DNA of 64,000 nucleotides. Source: Prochlorococcus sp. AG-363-O06. Lineage in GTDB: Bacteria; Cyanobacteriota; Cyanobacteriia; PCC-6307; Cyanobiaceae. The notes under the pieces are model-generated. The model saw only the letters and a list, made by a program, of their open reading frames with translations, searched no databases and had not been told where the DNA came from. Location of the stretch: the NCBI GenBank assembly GCA_003280085.1, contig QCFY01000002.1, forward strand, positions 1 through 64,000. The letters run 5' to 3'. A program made the position numbers and the translations under genes. Of this stretch, positions 9,967 to 18,690 are shown piece by piece; positions within the stretch are counted from its first letter, which is position 1; each line of letters begins with the position of its first letter.

Positions 9967-9979
<13 letters not shown>
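9898..9979 (+). tRNA. tRNA-Tyr (GTA)
   Basis: A cloverleaf folds with acceptor strands GGGTCGG and CCGGCCC (one G-T pair), a long variable arm, the anticodon GTA inside ACTGTAAAT and a T-loop GGTTCAAATCC. The CCA end is not encoded. Its last 13 bases are part of the 98-bp direct repeat that recurs at 18593. Confidence 0.95.
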
Positions 9980-10064
<85 letters not shown>

Positions 10065-10119: not shown

Positions 10120-10171
10120 AAAGTGGACGTCCACTTTTAGGTCCACTTTTGCCTGAAAAGACCAGATCTGG
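10120..10171. promoter_or_regulatory. palindrome cluster between tRNA-Thr and integrase
   Basis: A perfect 18-bp palindrome at 10120-10137 (AAAGTGGAC|GTCCACTTT) is followed by a third half-site GTCCACTTTT at 10141-10150, so that half-site repeats with a 12-bp period. CCAGATCTGG at 10162-10171 is another perfect palindrome. Just before, AGAGAAT/ATTCTCT (10085-10112) can form a stem. Positions between the att repeat and the recombinase gene fit accessory (arm-type) recombinase sites or an autoregulatory operator; both are inference. Confidence 0.45.
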
Positions 10172-10204: not shown

Positions 10205-11185
10205 ATGGCAACCATTCGAAGAAGCGGAAAGGGCTGGCAAGCTTTAATTCGAAAGAAAGATTATTTAGGCCAAAAAACTAAAACGTTTCCTTCCAAAAGT
10301 CAGGCTCAATTGTGGGCAAATGCCGTTGAATCGTCCCTACAAATATCAACTCAATTAACAGATCGTGCACCCAAAATCTTTCAAGAAGCGATTGATCTGT
10401 ATGTCCAAGGTCCGTTGCAATCCCATCGCAGTGGCCATAACGAACAATACCCACTCCAAGCAATGGCCAATCATTGGATCGGAGGAGTACTCATCAGTGA
10501 ACTTTCGATCCGGCATTTAGCCCTGTGGCGGGACGAACGCTTACTCAAAGTCAAGCCCAATACGATCATGAGGGAACTCAGAATCGTGAGAGTTCTTCTG
10601 GATTGGGCACGAGATGAACTGGGCTGCGACCTGAAATCCAATCCAGCGCGAACGTTAAAAGTAAGAGGTGCCAGTGATGCCAGGCTTCCTTACATCAGCA
10701 CTAAGCAGAAACAACAATTACTTGATGAATTAGGGAAATCCAAAAATCCCAATCACAAGCGACTCACACAATTGGCATTGGCGACAGGGATGAGACGTTG
10801 TGAATTATTAGCAATGAAATGGACAGATCTTGATCTCACTCGAGGCTTGGTTCACCTCAATCGCAAAGACTGTGCCGCCCAAGGACTTGCGAGCAGCGAT
10901 CGCTTAGTACCACTATCACCGAAGTCGGTTGATCTGCTCAAGCACTATCCACAAACTAGTGAGTATGTGATCGAACTCAGTGTTGGAGCAGCTCGTCACG
11001 GTTTTGATCGTGCCCGCAAAGCCGCTGGCCTGACTGAACTGAGGTTTCATGACCTACGCCATATCGCAATTAGCAGCATGTGGGCCGATGGAATGAATGC
11101 TCTGCAGATCTCAGAAGCCAGTGGCCATAAAGATCTAAGAATGTTGATGCGCTATAGCCATTACGGCTTGGGGTATGGGGGCTAA
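10205..11185 (+). CDS. tyrosine recombinase / site-specific integrase
   Basis: This is a 326-residue integrase. The N-terminal 45 residues (IRRSGKGWQALIRKKDYLGQ...) resemble the arm-binding domain of phage-type integrases, and a SAM-like core-binding helical domain lies at about 55-155. The catalytic domain shows R197 in ATGMRRCELL, H282 and R285 in FHDLRHIAI, H308 in EASGHKD and the nucleophile Y317 in LMRYSHY. All catalytic residues I looked for are present, so the enzyme may be active. It sits directly downstream of tRNA-Thr copy 1 and within the 98-bp repeat pair. Base composition is richer in G+C than most neighbours, suggesting foreign origin. Confidence 0.92.
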   Translation: MATIRRSGKGWQALIRKKDYLGQKTKTFPSKSQAQLWANAVESSLQISTQLTDRAPKIFQEAIDLYVQGPLQSHRSGHNEQYPLQAMANHWIGGVLISELSIRHLALWRDERLLKVKPNTIMRELRIVRVLLDWARDELGCDLKSNPARTLKVRGASDARLPYISTKQKQQLLDELGKSKNPNHKRLTQLALATGMRRCELLAMKWTDLDLTRGLVHLNRKDCAAQGLASSDRLVPLSPKSVDLLKHYPQTSEYVIELSVGAARHGFDRARKAAGLTELRFHDLRHIAISSMWADGMNALQISEASGHKDLRMLMRYSHYGLGYGG

Positions 11186-11826: not shown

Positions 11827-12822
11827 TCAAATTTCAAGGCCTTTCTTGCTAAGGCCTATCCATAAAATTTGACGAGATGAATTTAATTTTGCTACAACAT
11901 CAGAATTTATTGACTGAAGATTTTCTTTTGGTATTGCTGTTTGAATCATTCTGATAAATAGCTCTAGAGATTTTCCTTTGATCGAAGCCCCTCTATTTTT
12001 TTGAAGATTCATTTCTTGTTGGCTCTTCCATTCTCTAGTGGATAAGAAATCAATGGCTTTTAAATGCAATATCCTTTCAAATTCATCCCAAATAGGCTGA
12101 TATTCTTTAAGAGATCTTTGGACAATATCTTGGTAATGCTTTTCATCCAAGGAGATTTCTTGGGGTCCATTAGATCCATTCTTCTGCGAGATGGTTCTAT
12201 CAACCTTTAAACCACAGCCTAAAAACCATCCTTCAATAACAAGAACCTTAGGCGTCGAAATATTCCATCCGGATCGGTCTCCAAGTCCATTTCGCAGGGC
12301 TTTATCAAATTGAGGTGATTTTAGAATGCCTGTACTTTTCCAATTTTCAATAGTTACTTTCATCAGTTCTATTTCATGACTACCTGGCAATGCTCTTGGC
12401 ACTAACCAGGGATTACCTGCCATTGCTTGTTCAAGTTCTCGAGCTGGCAAGTAGAAGTCATCCATTGATATAACGTCTACAGACCAATTAAATTCTGCAG
12501 TAGCGGCCTTAATCCAATGCCCAAAACTGGTTTTGCCACATCCTGGTAATCCAGATATACCAAGCAAAGTTCTTTCCTCCGTTTTTAAAAGACAATGCTC
12601 TATATCTGATAAAAATGGCATGCCCACTCCCCAGGCCCAGTCTCGTTTTGTTCCTAGAGGCCAACTAGAAGATGCAATCTCAACGCCACCACGATTGTTC
12701 CAATGATTTAGCCACTCAGAATTATCTTTCCAATTCAAATGATCTAGGAGTTGCTCGTATGGTTTTATGGGGAAGAGGATATGTGGATCTTTTGGATTAG
12801 ACCAAGGAGAATATTTAGTCAT
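11827..12822 (-). CDS. plant-type D-glycerate 3-kinase
   Basis: The protein matches GLYK-type glycerate kinases, which convert D-glycerate and ATP to 3-phosphoglycerate. The P-loop is at 91-99 (GLPGCGKTS). DVISMDDFYLP follows in the position of the substrate/base-binding loop, then PRALPGSHEIEL and KVLVIEGWFLGC. Length is 331 aa with an N-terminal extension of about 80 residues. In this cluster the obvious source of glycerate is phosphorolysis of glucosylglycerate by the product of 13655-15406. It is the last of three consecutive minus-strand genes, 35 bp after the phosphatase. Confidence 0.85.
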   Translation of the reverse strand: MTKYSPWSNPKDPHILFPIKPYEQLLDHLNWKDNSEWLNHWNNRGGVEIASSSWPLGTKRDWAWGVGMPFLSDIEHCLLKTEERTLLGISGLPGCGKTSFGHWIKAATAEFNWSVDVISMDDFYLPARELEQAMAGNPWLVPRALPGSHEIELMKVTIENWKSTGILKSPQFDKALRNGLGDRSGWNISTPKVLVIEGWFLGCGLKVDRTISQKNGSNGPQEISLDEKHYQDIVQRSLKEYQPIWDEFERILHLKAIDFLSTREWKSQQEMNLQKNRGASIKGKSLELFIRMIQTAIPKENLQSINSDVVAKLNSSRQILWIGLSKKGLEI

Positions 12823-12857
12823 TAGAGAGTGTCCAAATCAGTAGCTTGCATTGGAAA

Positions 12858-13655
12858 TTACCCAACTAATTGTTGGCGTAGAATCATTTCCACAGATTGG
12901 CTCCACCCTTCTGCATTTGGAGCAGGAGCCAATATAAACTTGCCAGATTTAATTTCTTTTACAAAGCAATTATTGGGCCCTTGAGGACTTGGAACAACAA
13001 TAGATATATTGGCGATTTCCAATAAAGAACGATCATTTGGTGAGTCCCCTAGGCCAATAACCTTGATATTTGGTTTCTTCATAATGCCTTTTAACTTATT
13101 AATAGCTTGTCCTTTGCCGCTTCTTTTATCTATTAAGTGGCTCATTCTATTGCCTTGAACGACATCTAAACCATAAATTAATGATATTTTCTGTAATTCT
13201 TTTAAGGCATTCTTAGAAGGATTAAGGAATGGAACGCTCCATAATCTTGCTACAGCTAGTTCAATTTCAGCTCCTTTTAACCCTGTTAGTCGTGTGATCT
13301 CAGAATGACTAAGATCTTCAAAGGGAAAAAGCTCTTCGCCTATTTGTTTGCTTAATTTAATTAGGAATGGTTTTAATTCATCATGTGTTTTTCCTAATGC
13401 ATATTCACTTATTCCATATAAGTCTTTATTAATTCCATATATTGCCCCACCATTTTCTACAATATATGGACTTGAAAGACCCAGCTTACTTCTAAAGTTT
13501 TCAACTTCAGCAGCCGTTTTACTGGTACAAGGGATTAAATTTATTCCTTCTTTAATTATCCATTTCAAGGTTTTAATGGCAGGTTCAATATCATAATTAT
13601 GATCCATTAAAGTCCCATCAAGATCTGTTACTATCCATATACTATCTTTTAGCAT
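12858..13655 (-). CDS. gpgP: glucosyl-/mannosyl-3-phosphoglycerate phosphatase
   Basis: This is a HAD-superfamily phosphatase of the MPGP type, removing the 3-phosphate from glucosyl-3-phosphoglycerate to release glucosylglycerate. The nucleophile motif is DLDGTLMD, with D11 and D13. IPCTSKTAAEVE is motif II, and VIGLGDSPNDRSLL near the C-terminus is motif IV. KTAAEVE and the PYIVENGGAIYG block are typical of MPGP/GPGP rather than generic Cof-type phosphatases. Glucosyl over mannosyl specificity is inferred from the linked synthase and from the known use of glucosylglycerate in picocyanobacteria. Its ATG overlaps the stop of the upstream gene (TAATG). Confidence 0.85.
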   Translation of the reverse strand: MLKDSIWIVTDLDGTLMDHNYDIEPAIKTLKWIIKEGINLIPCTSKTAAEVENFRSKLGLSSPYIVENGGAIYGINKDLYGISEYALGKTHDELKPFLIKLSKQIGEELFPFEDLSHSEITRLTGLKGAEIELAVARLWSVPFLNPSKNALKELQKISLIYGLDVVQGNRMSHLIDKRSGKGQAINKLKGIMKKPNIKVIGLGDSPNDRSLLEIANISIVVPSPQGPNNCFVKEIKSGKFILAPAPNAEGWSQSVEMILRQQLVG

Positions 13656-15406
13656 TATTTGTACACCTCATTTCTCTTGATCCATGCTACTGAATATGGG
13701 TTTATTTCTACATTTGATGCATTTATTATTTTTTCTGATAGATAATCTTTCCATTCAATATTGTCATCATGGTTGACTCTAATTCCTAATTCTTCCAAAG
13801 AAAATCTATATAACTTACTAGTAAAATTATGAATTACCCAAACCTTATCTTCTCTTTCTCCTCTGCATATAGCAACAATACCACTGCAGGATACGCTTAT
13901 ATGTCTCATTTGAGATGATGGATGAAAAGCTTTTAATTGACTACGAGTTTTCATTGCAAATTGAAGCAACTTAAGGTTCTTACTGGCAAATGATTTTGGA
14001 TTATTTAAATTATTAAAGAGATCATAAGCGTCAAATTTCTTTCTATTTATATCTCTTCGCTGACCAGTCTTCTTAAATGTTTCTAGATCATTTTCGCAAG
14101 CCAAAAGAGCTTGCAAATAAAAAGCCGGAATACCAGGAAGGGCCATAACAAATAGTTGACTTAAAATAAAACGATCTGTTTGCAAAGAATTCCTCTCGCT
14201 GCTTTTACTTTTCATTGCGCTCCACCAACTTATATTTAACTCGTAAGGCTCTTCTTCCCCTTCAGGTAAAGTCCTATGACTAATTAACCCTCCTCTTTTC
14301 TCGCATTCAGATAAAAGATTTTTAATGCGCACATCACTCATCAAACCTTTTAAAGGTATCAGCCCAACTCCGTCATGACAGGAGGTGAAATTCAGTAAGG
14401 CTGTATTACGAGGCAGACGCTTCCAAGCCTTCAACCATTTATTAAGTAAGTCAGTCTTTTGACTGATAATCGCTTCAAGAATTAAAGGAGGTAGAGGAAA
14501 ATTATATGCAATATTCGCTTCGTCAGCAGTTATTAGATAGGAAAGATTATCTTTTTCCGGAACATTCGTTTCTGTAACTAGGACACCATCTTTTAGTAGA
14601 TTATTAAGCATAATCCGTATTATCTTGATAATCTTATGTGCTTTCTTATCATTAATGCAGCGTCCACCTGACCTTTTCCATATAAATCCAACGGCATCTA
14701 GCCTTAACCAACTTATACCATTTTCTATATATAAAGCTATAAGTTTTAGATATTCTAGTAGGAGATTCGGTTCTGCCCAATTCACATCAATTTGATCAGG
14801 ACCAAAAGTAGTCCATACATCCCTGGGTCCATGTATTGTTTGGATGGTTTTAAAAAGAGATGTATTCCTTGGCCTAAAGACATTTTCCCAATTATCTTTT
14901 TTGGATGGTGATAATATATATTTTGAACCTGGTTCTTTATCTTTTACAAAATCTTCAACCCATTGGTGTCTTGAGGAAATATGATTGAGTACAATATCAC
15001 CCATTAATTTTCTTTTTTTGCTGATTTTTTTTAAATCTTCCCAGTCTCCAAATGACTTATCGATTGTCGTATGACTAGACACAGCAAAACCACCATCACT
15101 AGTTGAATAAAGGAAGGGTAAAATATGAACTATTGAAGACAAATTACCAATATAACTTATTATTAAATCATAAAGAATGTTTAAGGAAGGTTTGTCTGAA
15201 GAATAAATAGAATCTGGATATGTAATTAAAACTACAGAGGAAGAATCCCAGAGGTGATAGTTAGAATCATTTTTTCTGCTTAAGGTTGAATTCTCTTCTG
15301 AAATCTGCATCAATTGCGACAATAATAATTCGATATCTTCGGCAGATTGGTCCTGATAAATTTCCTTAAGCAGGTGTCTGAGATGGTCACTGTGAAAATC
15401 CTTCAA
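13655..15406 (-). CDS. GH13_18 phosphorylase, probable glucosylglycerate phosphorylase
   Basis: This 583-residue protein belongs to the sucrose-phosphorylase branch of GH13. The nucleophile is D237 in WLRLDAVGF, the acid/base is E279 in VTETNVP and the stabiliser is D345 in SCHDGVG. GDIVLNHISSRH is conserved region I. Family members include sucrose phosphorylase and glucosylglycerate phosphorylase (E. coli YcjM type). Position between gpgS and gpgP/glycerate kinase points to glucosylglycerate plus phosphate giving glucose-1-phosphate and D-glycerate. That substrate is inference; sucrose or glucosylglycerol are alternatives. It is divergent from gpgS with 75 bp between starts. Confidence 0.82.
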   Translation of the reverse strand: MKDFHSDHLRHLLKEIYQDQSAEDIELLLSQLMQISEENSTLSRKNDSNYHLWDSSSVVLITYPDSIYSSDKPSLNILYDLIISYIGNLSSIVHILPFLYSTSDGGFAVSSHTTIDKSFGDWEDLKKISKKRKLMGDIVLNHISSRHQWVEDFVKDKEPGSKYILSPSKKDNWENVFRPRNTSLFKTIQTIHGPRDVWTTFGPDQIDVNWAEPNLLLEYLKLIALYIENGISWLRLDAVGFIWKRSGGRCINDKKAHKIIKIIRIMLNNLLKDGVLVTETNVPEKDNLSYLITADEANIAYNFPLPPLILEAIISQKTDLLNKWLKAWKRLPRNTALLNFTSCHDGVGLIPLKGLMSDVRIKNLLSECEKRGGLISHRTLPEGEEEPYELNISWWSAMKSKSSERNSLQTDRFILSQLFVMALPGIPAFYLQALLACENDLETFKKTGQRRDINRKKFDAYDLFNNLNNPKSFASKNLKLLQFAMKTRSQLKAFHPSSQMRHISVSCSGIVAICRGEREDKVWVIHNFTSKLYRFSLEELGIRVNHDDNIEWKDYLSEKIINASNVEINPYSVAWIKRNEVYK

Positions 15407-15481
15407 GAATCAATTCTTTAAGTACTCTTTAAAGTAAGGATCTTCTAAAAGGCTTACAGGTAATGTCTCGCTTACTACAAA

Positions 15482-16720
15482 ATGGACTTCCAACAGGATT
15501 TAATTACGTCAATTCATGACTATGGGGTTTTTTCTGATTCCTTGGAGGGAATGAGAAAAGGCCTATCAGAAAAAGCAACATCACTTTTAATACCTTGTCT
15601 TTATGAGGAATTTGAAAGGCCCGCATTAAATCAAATCAAGGAAGTCTTACAAGAATTAGAAGGACTCCATCAATTGGTCATAGCTCTTTCTGCAGACTCA
15701 ATAGATGAAGTTAATAACGCGAAAAAGTTTTTTAGGGATATGCCTTTCCCTGTCCATATCCAATGGACAAATGGACCTTCAGTGAAAGAACTTTTAAAAT
15801 CTCAAGAAGAGAAAAATGGTCTAGACTTATTAGTTCCTCCGGGGAAAGGTTGGGCTGTTTGGCAGGGACTAGGAGTTGCGACTAAATCTTCAGAAGTTAT
15901 AGGTTTATTTGATGCAGATATTAAAACCTTTAAGCCTTCTTATCCAGCCAGAATGTTACCCCCTTTGTTAGACCCTTCTTACGGGATTTCATACGTAAAA
16001 GCTTTTTACAGCAGATTATCTTTAGAGAATCATTCTTTACAAGGTCGAGCAACTCGATTATTTGTTGGCCCACTTCTTACAAGCCTTGAAAAGATATTGG
16101 GTGGAGGACCCTTCTTAAAATACCTTCAGGCATTTAGGTATCCTTTGGCGGGAGAATTTGCATTTACTCAAACTCTTGCTTTGAATTTAAGAATACCTTG
16201 TGATTGGGGATTAGAGATTGGTCTCTTGTCGGAGATATATCGACATGTAAGGACAAATCGAATAGCTCAAGTAGATTTAGGCATTTTTGATCATAAGCAT
16301 AAGGAAATAGGTGATTCTATGAATAATGGATTACAAAGGATGTGTTGCGAGATCTTTTCAACAATACTTAGAGGGCTTATGGAACATCAATCTCAAAGCC
16401 TCACTAATGATCAGATTTCTACTCTACAAGTTTTATATAGCCGTATAGGAGAGGATAGAGTTAAGCAGTTTGGTCTGGATTCTGTTATAAATCATCTCCC
16501 ATATAATAGACATCTTGAGGAGATGGCAGTTCAAAAATTCGCCTGTTTAATTAAATCAACAGCAGGTGCTTTTTTGAATACTCCGATTACCAAACAACTT
16601 CCTGCTTGGTCACGAGTTATTTCATGTGATAGTAGATTTCAAGATGATTTGATTGAAGCAGGTGATTGTCATTCATCTCAACTAAAATTATTTGGTCAGA
16701 ATAAATTAATAACAGCTTAA
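15482..16720 (+). CDS. gpgS: glucosyl-3-phosphoglycerate synthase
   Basis: This GT81-family enzyme makes glucosyl-3-phosphoglycerate from NDP-glucose and D-3-phosphoglycerate, the first step to the compatible solute glucosylglycerate. SLLIPCLYEEF starts the GT-A fold. PPGKGWAVWQGL (119-130) is the GpgS signature loop and GLFDADIKTF contains the metal-binding D144-A-D146. Length (412 aa) matches picocyanobacterial GpgS. Glucosylglycerate is known to rise in Prochlorococcus and Synechococcus as an organic solute when nitrogen is short. I see no clean canonical NtcA site in the short divergent promoter. Confidence 0.92.
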   Translation: MDFQQDLITSIHDYGVFSDSLEGMRKGLSEKATSLLIPCLYEEFERPALNQIKEVLQELEGLHQLVIALSADSIDEVNNAKKFFRDMPFPVHIQWTNGPSVKELLKSQEEKNGLDLLVPPGKGWAVWQGLGVATKSSEVIGLFDADIKTFKPSYPARMLPPLLDPSYGISYVKAFYSRLSLENHSLQGRATRLFVGPLLTSLEKILGGGPFLKYLQAFRYPLAGEFAFTQTLALNLRIPCDWGLEIGLLSEIYRHVRTNRIAQVDLGIFDHKHKEIGDSMNNGLQRMCCEIFSTILRGLMEHQSQSLTNDQISTLQVLYSRIGEDRVKQFGLDSVINHLPYNRHLEEMAVQKFACLIKSTAGAFLNTPITKQLPAWSRVISCDSRFQDDLIEAGDCHSSQLKLFGQNKLITA

Positions 16721-17331: not shown

Positions 17332-17487
17332 ATGAACCTGATCGAGTTAGACAAGAAAGCTGTCCTACTAGTACAGAAGCGACTTGGACTTAGCAACTAT
17401 GGAATGGTCAACCTTAGCTGGGTCTTCGGTTTTGCAGTAGGAGTTATAGCCACTCTGATTCTTCACTGGATCTTCTCATCTCATTAA
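17332..17487 (+). CDS. small single-helix membrane protein (51 aa)
   Basis: The frame starts MNLIELDKKAVLLVQKRLG and ends with a strong transmembrane helix (SWVFGFAVGVIATLILHWIF). It is flanked closely by two other micro-ORFs. Not recognised. Confidence 0.45.
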   Translation: MNLIELDKKAVLLVQKRLGLSNYGMVNLSWVFGFAVGVIATLILHWIFSSH

Positions 17488-17489
17488 TC

Positions 17490-17588
17490 ATGCCTATCAA
17501 CAAACCAATTCCTGATTCTGTAATTCGCTTTTGGCAAAAGCAGTTTCAAAAGATCAGAGAAATAATTGTTAGACCTCCTAGTAAATAG
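17490..17588 (+). CDS. micro-ORF, 32 aa, basic
   Basis: The frame MPINKPIPDSVIRFWQKQF is basic and begins two bases after the preceding stop. It resembles the 17216 micro-ORF in style (short, amphipathic, lysine-rich). Possibly translationally coupled; not recognised. Confidence 0.35.
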   Translation: MPINKPIPDSVIRFWQKQFQKIREIIVRPPSK

Positions 17589-17651
17589 AACACGACTTGT
17601 TGTTGTTGTTTGAGGGTTTTGATTCTGCTTACTTGTCATAGGTCATCCTTC

Positions 17652-17675
17652 AAAAAAGAGGCGCCTTCTAGCCTC
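17652..17675 (-). terminator. rho-independent terminator
   Basis: Read on the minus strand: GAGGC, a short loop, GCCTC and a run of T. It lies about 30 bp after the stop of the minus-strand gene 17706-17879 and also separates it from the plus-strand micro-ORFs. Confidence 0.6.
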
Positions 17676-17705
17676 GATTTTCACAAGTTATGCCCTCAGA
17701 TCCCT

Positions 17706-17879
17706 TTATCCATAAGCCCCATATTTTGGTCTTTTAGCGATAGCAGCCCTACATTTCATCTCGTTTAACTGCTTGAGCGAAATCATCTCGGAATGAGCTT
17801 CGAGATGACGTTCAACCGCTTCTCGTTCTCGCTTGGTCAAGGTCTTGCCCGAATGAATTAATTGATTAATCGTTCTCAT
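17706..17879 (-). CDS. small hypothetical protein (57 aa), helical and charged
   Basis: The product begins MRTINQLIHSGKTLTKRERE and is mostly charged helix (EAVERHLEAHSEMISLKQLNEM), ending in KRPKYGAYG. It could be a small DNA-binding or antitoxin-like protein, but no family is recognised. The gene has its own terminators on both sides, and its G+C is higher than the glucosylglycerate genes, like the integrase, suggesting it belongs to the mobile backbone. Confidence 0.55.
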   Translation of the reverse strand: MRTINQLIHSGKTLTKREREAVERHLEAHSEMISLKQLNEMKCRAAIAKRPKYGAYG

Positions 17880-17908
17880 CGTGAATTTGTGATGGTGGTT
17901 TTGCGCAT

Positions 17909-17935
17909 AAAAAAAAGAGGCCAGTCTTGGCCTCT
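17909..17935 (-). terminator. rho-independent terminator
   Basis: Minus strand: AGAGGCC-AAGACT-GGCCTCT followed by eight T. It lies 67 bp after the stop of the minus-strand gene 18002-18163, so the two small minus-strand genes are probably separate transcripts. Confidence 0.8.
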
Positions 17936-18001
17936 CTGATAGATGCGATTGATTGTTTGATCTCTCAGCTTTTAACGTCCTCAGTGAGATTGGACGACAA
18001 C

Positions 18002-18163
18002 CTATGCGCTGTAATTGACTCCGATCTGTCTAAGCAGTCGTTCGTACTGGCTCAGTGAAATCCCCATGGAAGCTGCTTTCGCTTCTCGAACAAAGACATT
18101 GCTCAAATCAGAGCCCTGCCGTAAGGGATCGATCGATGGATTTTTATTGGTCTGATTATTCAT
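18002..18163 (-). CDS. small hypothetical protein (53 aa)
   Basis: The product begins MNNQTNKNPSIDPLRQGSD; the C-terminal half (FVREAKAASMGISLSQYERLL) looks like a ribbon-helix-helix or short helical DNA-binding segment. No family is recognised with confidence. It has a strong terminator downstream and a hairpin-rich noncoding region upstream. It may be part of the mobile element's control functions. Confidence 0.5.
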   Translation of the reverse strand: MNNQTNKNPSIDPLRQGSDLSNVFVREAKAASMGISLSQYERLLRQIGVNYSA

Positions 18164-18592
18164 AAGTAGTGATAGTGGTTTGATTTCATTTCTTCTTTTA
18201 TCTGCTTCTAGGTACCTGGTGCCGGCTCATCCCTCGACTTCGTCGAATCATGAGCTATCACCACTATTCAAATTGAAAAAGAGAGTGGATCTAAGACGTA
18301 ATTGATGAAGAAGGAGGAGAACTCGCTGTCGCTCGTTCTCTGCTCCTCATAATCAATAGGCTTTAAAGAGATTGAAGTCTTCAATCTTGTCTCTTCAATC
18401 CTTGTTCTCTTCCCCCGTGTAGCATTGTGGGGTTAGCCAAAAGCCAGTCTTTGCAAGGGGACTCAAAAGGTCAAAAAGTGGGCTTTTGAGCGATCGCAGC
18501 ACTCCCTAGAGGTGATTTGGCAAAGCTAAAAGATTGGTCTACATTCTCGGAGCGTCAATCAGATCAGCTGACTTAGCTGGGATTTCGGTGAG
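18164..18592. other. palindrome-rich noncoding right end of the element
   Basis: No gene is seen in this 429-bp stretch, but four inverted repeats are. 18225-18255 is a nested stem (GCTCAT/ATGAGC outside, TCGAC-TTC-GTCGA inside). 18301-18357 is a long imperfect stem starting ATTGATGAAG and closing with ATCAAT. 18369-18387 is AGATTGAAG-T-CTTCAATCT. 18462-18490 is CTCAAAAG/CTTTTGAG. It may be a structured RNA, a replication origin or recombination end; none can be decided here. Confidence 0.5.

Positions 18593-18690
<98 letters not shown>

Follow-up and report, generated by a model that had tools for sequence, protein, structure and literature searches.

The gene-free stretch at 18164-18592 of the analysed DNA (the window, 64 kb in total with a G+C content of ~40%) forms the right end of a mobile island that is inserted next to a tRNA-Thr gene of a Prochlorococcus-type marine cyanobacterium. 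Its 430 bp comprise two unrelated parts, an outer right arm of ~140 bp and an inner block of two hairpins. The outer part (about 18453-18592) is very probably the right arm of the attachment site, at which the integrase of the element would dock. For the right-end module as a whole we favour, with somewhat better than even confidence, a reading in which this integrase arm is combined with a separable module of hairpins, the small gene ORF2 and a terminator, and in which the hairpins most likely act as RNA. The assignment of the arm is more certain than the RNA reading of the hairpins.

The ends of the element were directly visible as two 98-bp direct repeats, 100% identical to each other, at 9967-10064 and 18593-18690 (both plus strand). 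These repeats bound an integrative element of 8.6 kb at a tRNA-Tyr/tRNA-Thr(GGT) locus, in agreement with the initial annotation, which had already placed the stretch at the right end of an element. The left copy consists of the last 15 nt of tRNA-Tyr, a spacer and the whole tRNA-Thr(GGT), and the right copy carries a second complete tRNA-Thr(GGT). The element encodes its own tyrosine recombinase (integrase) of 326 aa (10205-11185, plus strand; Pfam PF00589, E 1.4e-23; integrase in PHROG), which adjoins the left tRNA repeat, a position that is the same in relatives. The cargo (11827-16720, mixed strands) encodes a PRK-family-like kinase (11827-12822, minus strand), an MPGP-family phosphatase (12858-13655, minus strand), a GH13 sucrose-phosphorylase-like protein (13655-15406, minus strand) and a GpgS-family glucosyl-3-phosphoglycerate synthase (15482-16720, plus strand), and looks like a glucosylglycerate-type (compatible solute) gene set. 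One relative (G041) carries this cargo with 99% identity over 4.6 kb, adjacent to an end module of just 90% identity. Related elements retain the integrase and the segment 17484-18690 at the same locus with the cargo swapped. Since 17484-18690 is kept while the cargo changes, the gene-free region belongs to a conserved right-end module.

Within 18164-18592 no credible gene was found, the ORFs of at least 25 aa being short and unsupported. All four inverted repeats that the initial annotation had reported for this stretch are present (18217-18263, 18301-18357, 18369-18387 and 18462-18490). The nested stem it singled out was recovered at 18217-18263 with a folding z of -4.9 on the plus and -4.0 on the minus strand, and the second stem reached -2.2 and -3.1, respectively. 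The 19-base palindrome at 18369-18387, described as near-perfect, proved to be a perfect 9+1+9, and the repeat at 18462-18490 has 8+8 arms around a 13-nt loop. Perfect stems of at least 8 bp with a loop of at most 25 number three, compared with a mean of 0.22 in dinucleotide shuffles (three reached in 0 of 300), while a palindrome with 9-bp arms and a loop of at most 4 appeared in 4 of 500 shuffles. Over the whole 429 nt the signal is weaker (RNA z -1.3 and -1.7 for the plus and minus strands; DNA z -3.6). In relatives, structural conservation is seen for the two imperfect stems and not for the perfect repeats at 18369 and 18462, the least likely by shuffles. The palindrome is broken without compensation in two of the five close relatives (G019 and G041) and was rejected as a functional site. 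The stem at 18462-18490, which arises from the integrase arm and is not kept in divergent elements, was likewise rejected as a hairpin.

The right recombination arm (18453-18545, plus strand) contains a degenerate GGACTnAA site, AAAGTGGGC at 18475-18483 and a conserved CAGCACTCCCTAnAnnnGATTTGGC-type block. At the opposite end, the left arm (10120-10149, plus strand) consists of three AAAGTGGAC sites (AAAGTGGACGTCCACTTTT..GGTCCACTTTT), which are putative arm-type integrase sites. The AAAGTGGAC motif thus has three copies close to the left end, on its inner side, and, as AAAGTGGGC, one copy inside the right end, and is absent elsewhere in the 64 kb. Counted as AAAGTGG(A/G)C, these are the only four copies in the window, three of them beside the integrase; shuffled sequences contained a mean of 0.96 copies and never reached four. 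The arms are also kept in related elements: a block AAAGTGGACGTCC..TTT..GTCCACTTT is present in nearly all of 17 aligned left ends, and 13 aligned right ends share a repeated TGGACTnA-type site ending in AAAGTGGAC, together with the conserved CAGCACTCCCTAnAnnnGATTTGGC-type block. The clear exception among these 13 is L024, a decayed element whose right end lacks the motif. A short motif that is shared by both ends, rare elsewhere and retained in relatives is what an attachment site would display, and the layout is probably that of arm-type integrase sites around a core. We infer both the integrase binding and the crossover position. In the proposed mechanism, the integrase would bind the repeated AAAGTGGAC-type sites at both ends, and this arm binding would bring the 98-bp cores together for integration and excision. 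Judged by its sequence, the region is most likely a functional element end with an integrase arm on its right side, a reading that was absent from the initial annotation.

The inner block is formed by hairpin 1 (18207-18265; TGGTG-CCG-GCTCAT-CCC-TCGAC-TTC-GTCGA-ATC-ATGAGC-TAT-CACCA), which contains the nested stem, and hairpin 2 (18296-18361; ATTGAT..AGGAG..GAGAAC(loop)GTTCTC-CTCCT..ATCAAT on the minus strand), which covaries. In five close relatives, 95% of hairpin 1 and 94% of hairpin 2 are invariant, compared with 44-71% of the flanking blocks and 85% of ORF2. Divergent copies of hairpin 1 occur in G108, G345 and G085, and one compensatory pair, G-C to U-A, is seen in two lineages. Hairpin 2 is also found in G108 and G085, with four pairs altered on both sides. 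Its covariation score was reached by 0 of 500 shuffles and slid controls scored much lower; in the underlying alignment, MAFFT places the inner helix of G085 one base out of register. The helices are kept via compensatory change, in few independent lineages: just three to four carry the hairpins. As RNA, the minus strand is favoured by the G-U pairs of hairpin 2; in hairpin 1, a single invariant G-U pair lies on the plus strand, and folding energies of the whole unit do not discriminate between the strands. This conserved, covarying structure supports 18207-18361 as a candidate structured RNA, or at least as selected secondary structure. The structured RNA suggested by the initial annotation is hence supported for the two helices, which passed its proposed check of stem conservation in related elements, and not for the repeats at 18369 and 18462. 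We give an RNA reading of the hairpins, within a putative transcript, about an even chance.

The hairpin block lies upstream of ORF2 (18002-18163, minus strand), which is read leftwards and is followed by an intrinsic terminator (17914-17937, minus strand; kept with sequence change in related elements) and then by ORF1 (17706-17879, minus strand), a conserved small gene of the right-end module that encodes 57 aa. ORF2 encodes 53 aa with two predicted helices in a helix-turn-helix-like arrangement, the helix pair being predicted at a pLDDT of about 90. A fold search against solved structures gave no significant match for ORF2, the similarity to Fis-like proteins being weak and non-significant. 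Homologues of ~50 aa (IRxIRAAxMGxSLxQYExxLRxIG) are encoded in related genomes (L101:8133-8288, L102, L103, L104, L105, L106 and L112), and this small protein family has no match in Pfam or NCBIfam and no significant match in PHROGs.

According to the proposed mechanism, the two hairpins, ORF2 and the terminator would form a separable module inside the arm that is read leftwards, with the hairpins serving as a 5' leader that controls ORF2. Alternatively, the hairpins may constitute a small RNA that ends at the same terminator as ORF2. Transcription and its strand are part of this proposal; a search for a sigma-70-like promoter on the minus strand found none. ORF2 itself would be a small DNA-binding protein and a candidate regulator or directionality factor. 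G085 has both hairpins and the terminator but no ORF2, which suggests that the role of the hairpins is independent of ORF2. Since L094 conversely has ORF2 without hairpins, neither strictly depends on the other. The most specific version of the proposal, in which the two hairpins would be an undescribed mobile-element RNA in control of a helix-turn-helix directionality factor of minimal size, thereby switching excision at the RNA level, seems rather improbable to us.

Of 400 family genomes, 30 carry integrases of the same group; in the regions examined, these lie beside the tRNA-Tyr/Thr locus. A covariance model of hairpin 1 identified eight of these 400 genomes, with a single site in each, and repeating the search in two genera yielded no additional genome. 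Hairpins are present in 7 of the 14 right ends examined; because half of the right ends do without them, they are an optional module and no requirement for integration. The G108 contig that carries the hairpin module (L025) has neither a tRNA nor an att arm, which raises the possibility that the module moves independently of the attachment site. On this contig, the neighbour of the hairpins and of an ORF2 homologue is a short ORF that resembles the N-terminal part of trigger factor (L025:2561-3966).

The related loci showed several further peculiarities. A second, element-borne tRNA-Thr in G345 (L026:9448-9519) has the anticodon CGT, not GGT, so that a tRNA with an altered anticodon may have come from an island. 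Three right ends contain a whole second tRNA-Tyr plus tRNA-Thr (L027:8138-8391, L095:1983-2148 and L099:10174-10338). In G227, two tandem integrases of the same family, 64% and 74% identical to that of the window, share one tRNA site (L094:6931-19148). Finally, a block of ~190 nt with about 90% identity is common to the right end of the G218 element (L097:10050-10400) and to L101:8300-8640, where it lies upstream of an ORF2 homologue in G108. This block was considered as another RNA and rejected: in L101 it includes an open frame of 98 codons, and a decayed gene is the probable explanation.

Searches of Rfam at gathering and permissive thresholds returned only the tRNA and chance hits at this locus. 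Scans of IMG/VR with the hairpin, both arms, the integrase and ORF1 returned nothing real, the three 20-mer matches all being without the stem, and 50,697 phage records contained no match beyond the tRNA. None of the proteins encoded by the window's element was recognised as a replication, relaxase or packaging protein. Within the resources searched, the hairpin module appears to be undescribed.

These searches bear on the possibility that the hairpins function at the DNA level, folded or as cruciforms, for instance as a single-strand origin or as a signal for transfer or packaging of the excised circle, which would be served by proteins of a helper phage or the host. Both strands fold about equally well and the region sits at the element end, and PMC11389934 includes the proposal that tycheposons are phage satellites. 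We nevertheless regard this explanation as unlikely, in view of the missing replication, relaxase and packaging genes, the half of the family's right ends that lack the hairpins, the absence of matches among the phage records beyond the tRNA and in IMG/VR, and the G-U pairs of hairpin 2, which would be unexpected from DNA pairing. The origin, packaging site or transfer site that the initial annotation had offered as alternatives to an RNA is for the same reasons (no such genes, right ends without hairpins, no viral match) left unsupported.

A related thought is that the hairpins belong to the attachment site itself and provide accessory sites at which the recombination complex binds DNA, ORF2 acting as an excisionase being one example. 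Their position, on the arm side at 190-390 bp from the core, would suit such a role, as would the adjacent gene for a predicted helix-turn-helix protein, weak and non-significant as its Fis-like similarity is. However, half of the family uses the same site for recombination and has no hairpins, the pair changes on both sides fit pairing within a strand better than a conserved binding sequence, and the G108 module resides on a contig without an att arm or tRNA; we consider this role quite improbable. That the inverted repeats are incidental, or functionless relics of decayed sequence, is already disfavoured and in our judgement very unlikely. It would account for the loss of the 18369 palindrome in relatives, and the 18462 stem can be put down to the integrase arm, but it is at odds with the enrichment over shuffles, with the block conservation and compensatory changes, and with relatives in which the structures survive (both hairpins in G085, hairpin 1 in the decayed G345 element). 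An integrase arm joined to a module whose hairpins most likely act as RNA remains the reading that we prefer.

With tRNA-containing direct repeats at both ends, a tyrosine recombinase beside the tRNA and variable cargo between conserved ends, the element is tycheposon-like, a likeness by features for which no clade membership is claimed. Hackl et al. (Cell, 2023) reportedly described seven integration sites for the tycheposons of Prochlorococcus. Tycheposons share with the present element the host group, a tRNA site, a recombinase beside the tRNA and variable metabolic cargo, and differ from it in that the present element has a complete tRNA at both ends; PMC10872708 and PMC11389934, which cite that study, contain no mention of a hairpin module. 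As a type of site, the att arms are standard. They resemble lambda-type attP/attL/attR in having a core repeat with short sites on both sides in an asymmetric arrangement (three left, one or two right), whereas here the core, a 98-bp repeat, includes an entire tRNA gene and the binding is deduced from sequence alone. The hairpins resemble cyanobacterial structured RNAs (the Yfr family, Cyano-1 and the cyano-S1 leader) as short structured noncoding elements in picocyanobacteria, but they have no Rfam match and are confined to few mobile elements rather than core loci.

For a family of tRNA-Thr islands in abundant marine cyanobacteria, the present analysis provides candidate attachment arms at the left and right ends, and a candidate structured RNA carried along with the end of the island. 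With these arms at hand, the binding sites of the recombinase and the excised junction become directly testable.
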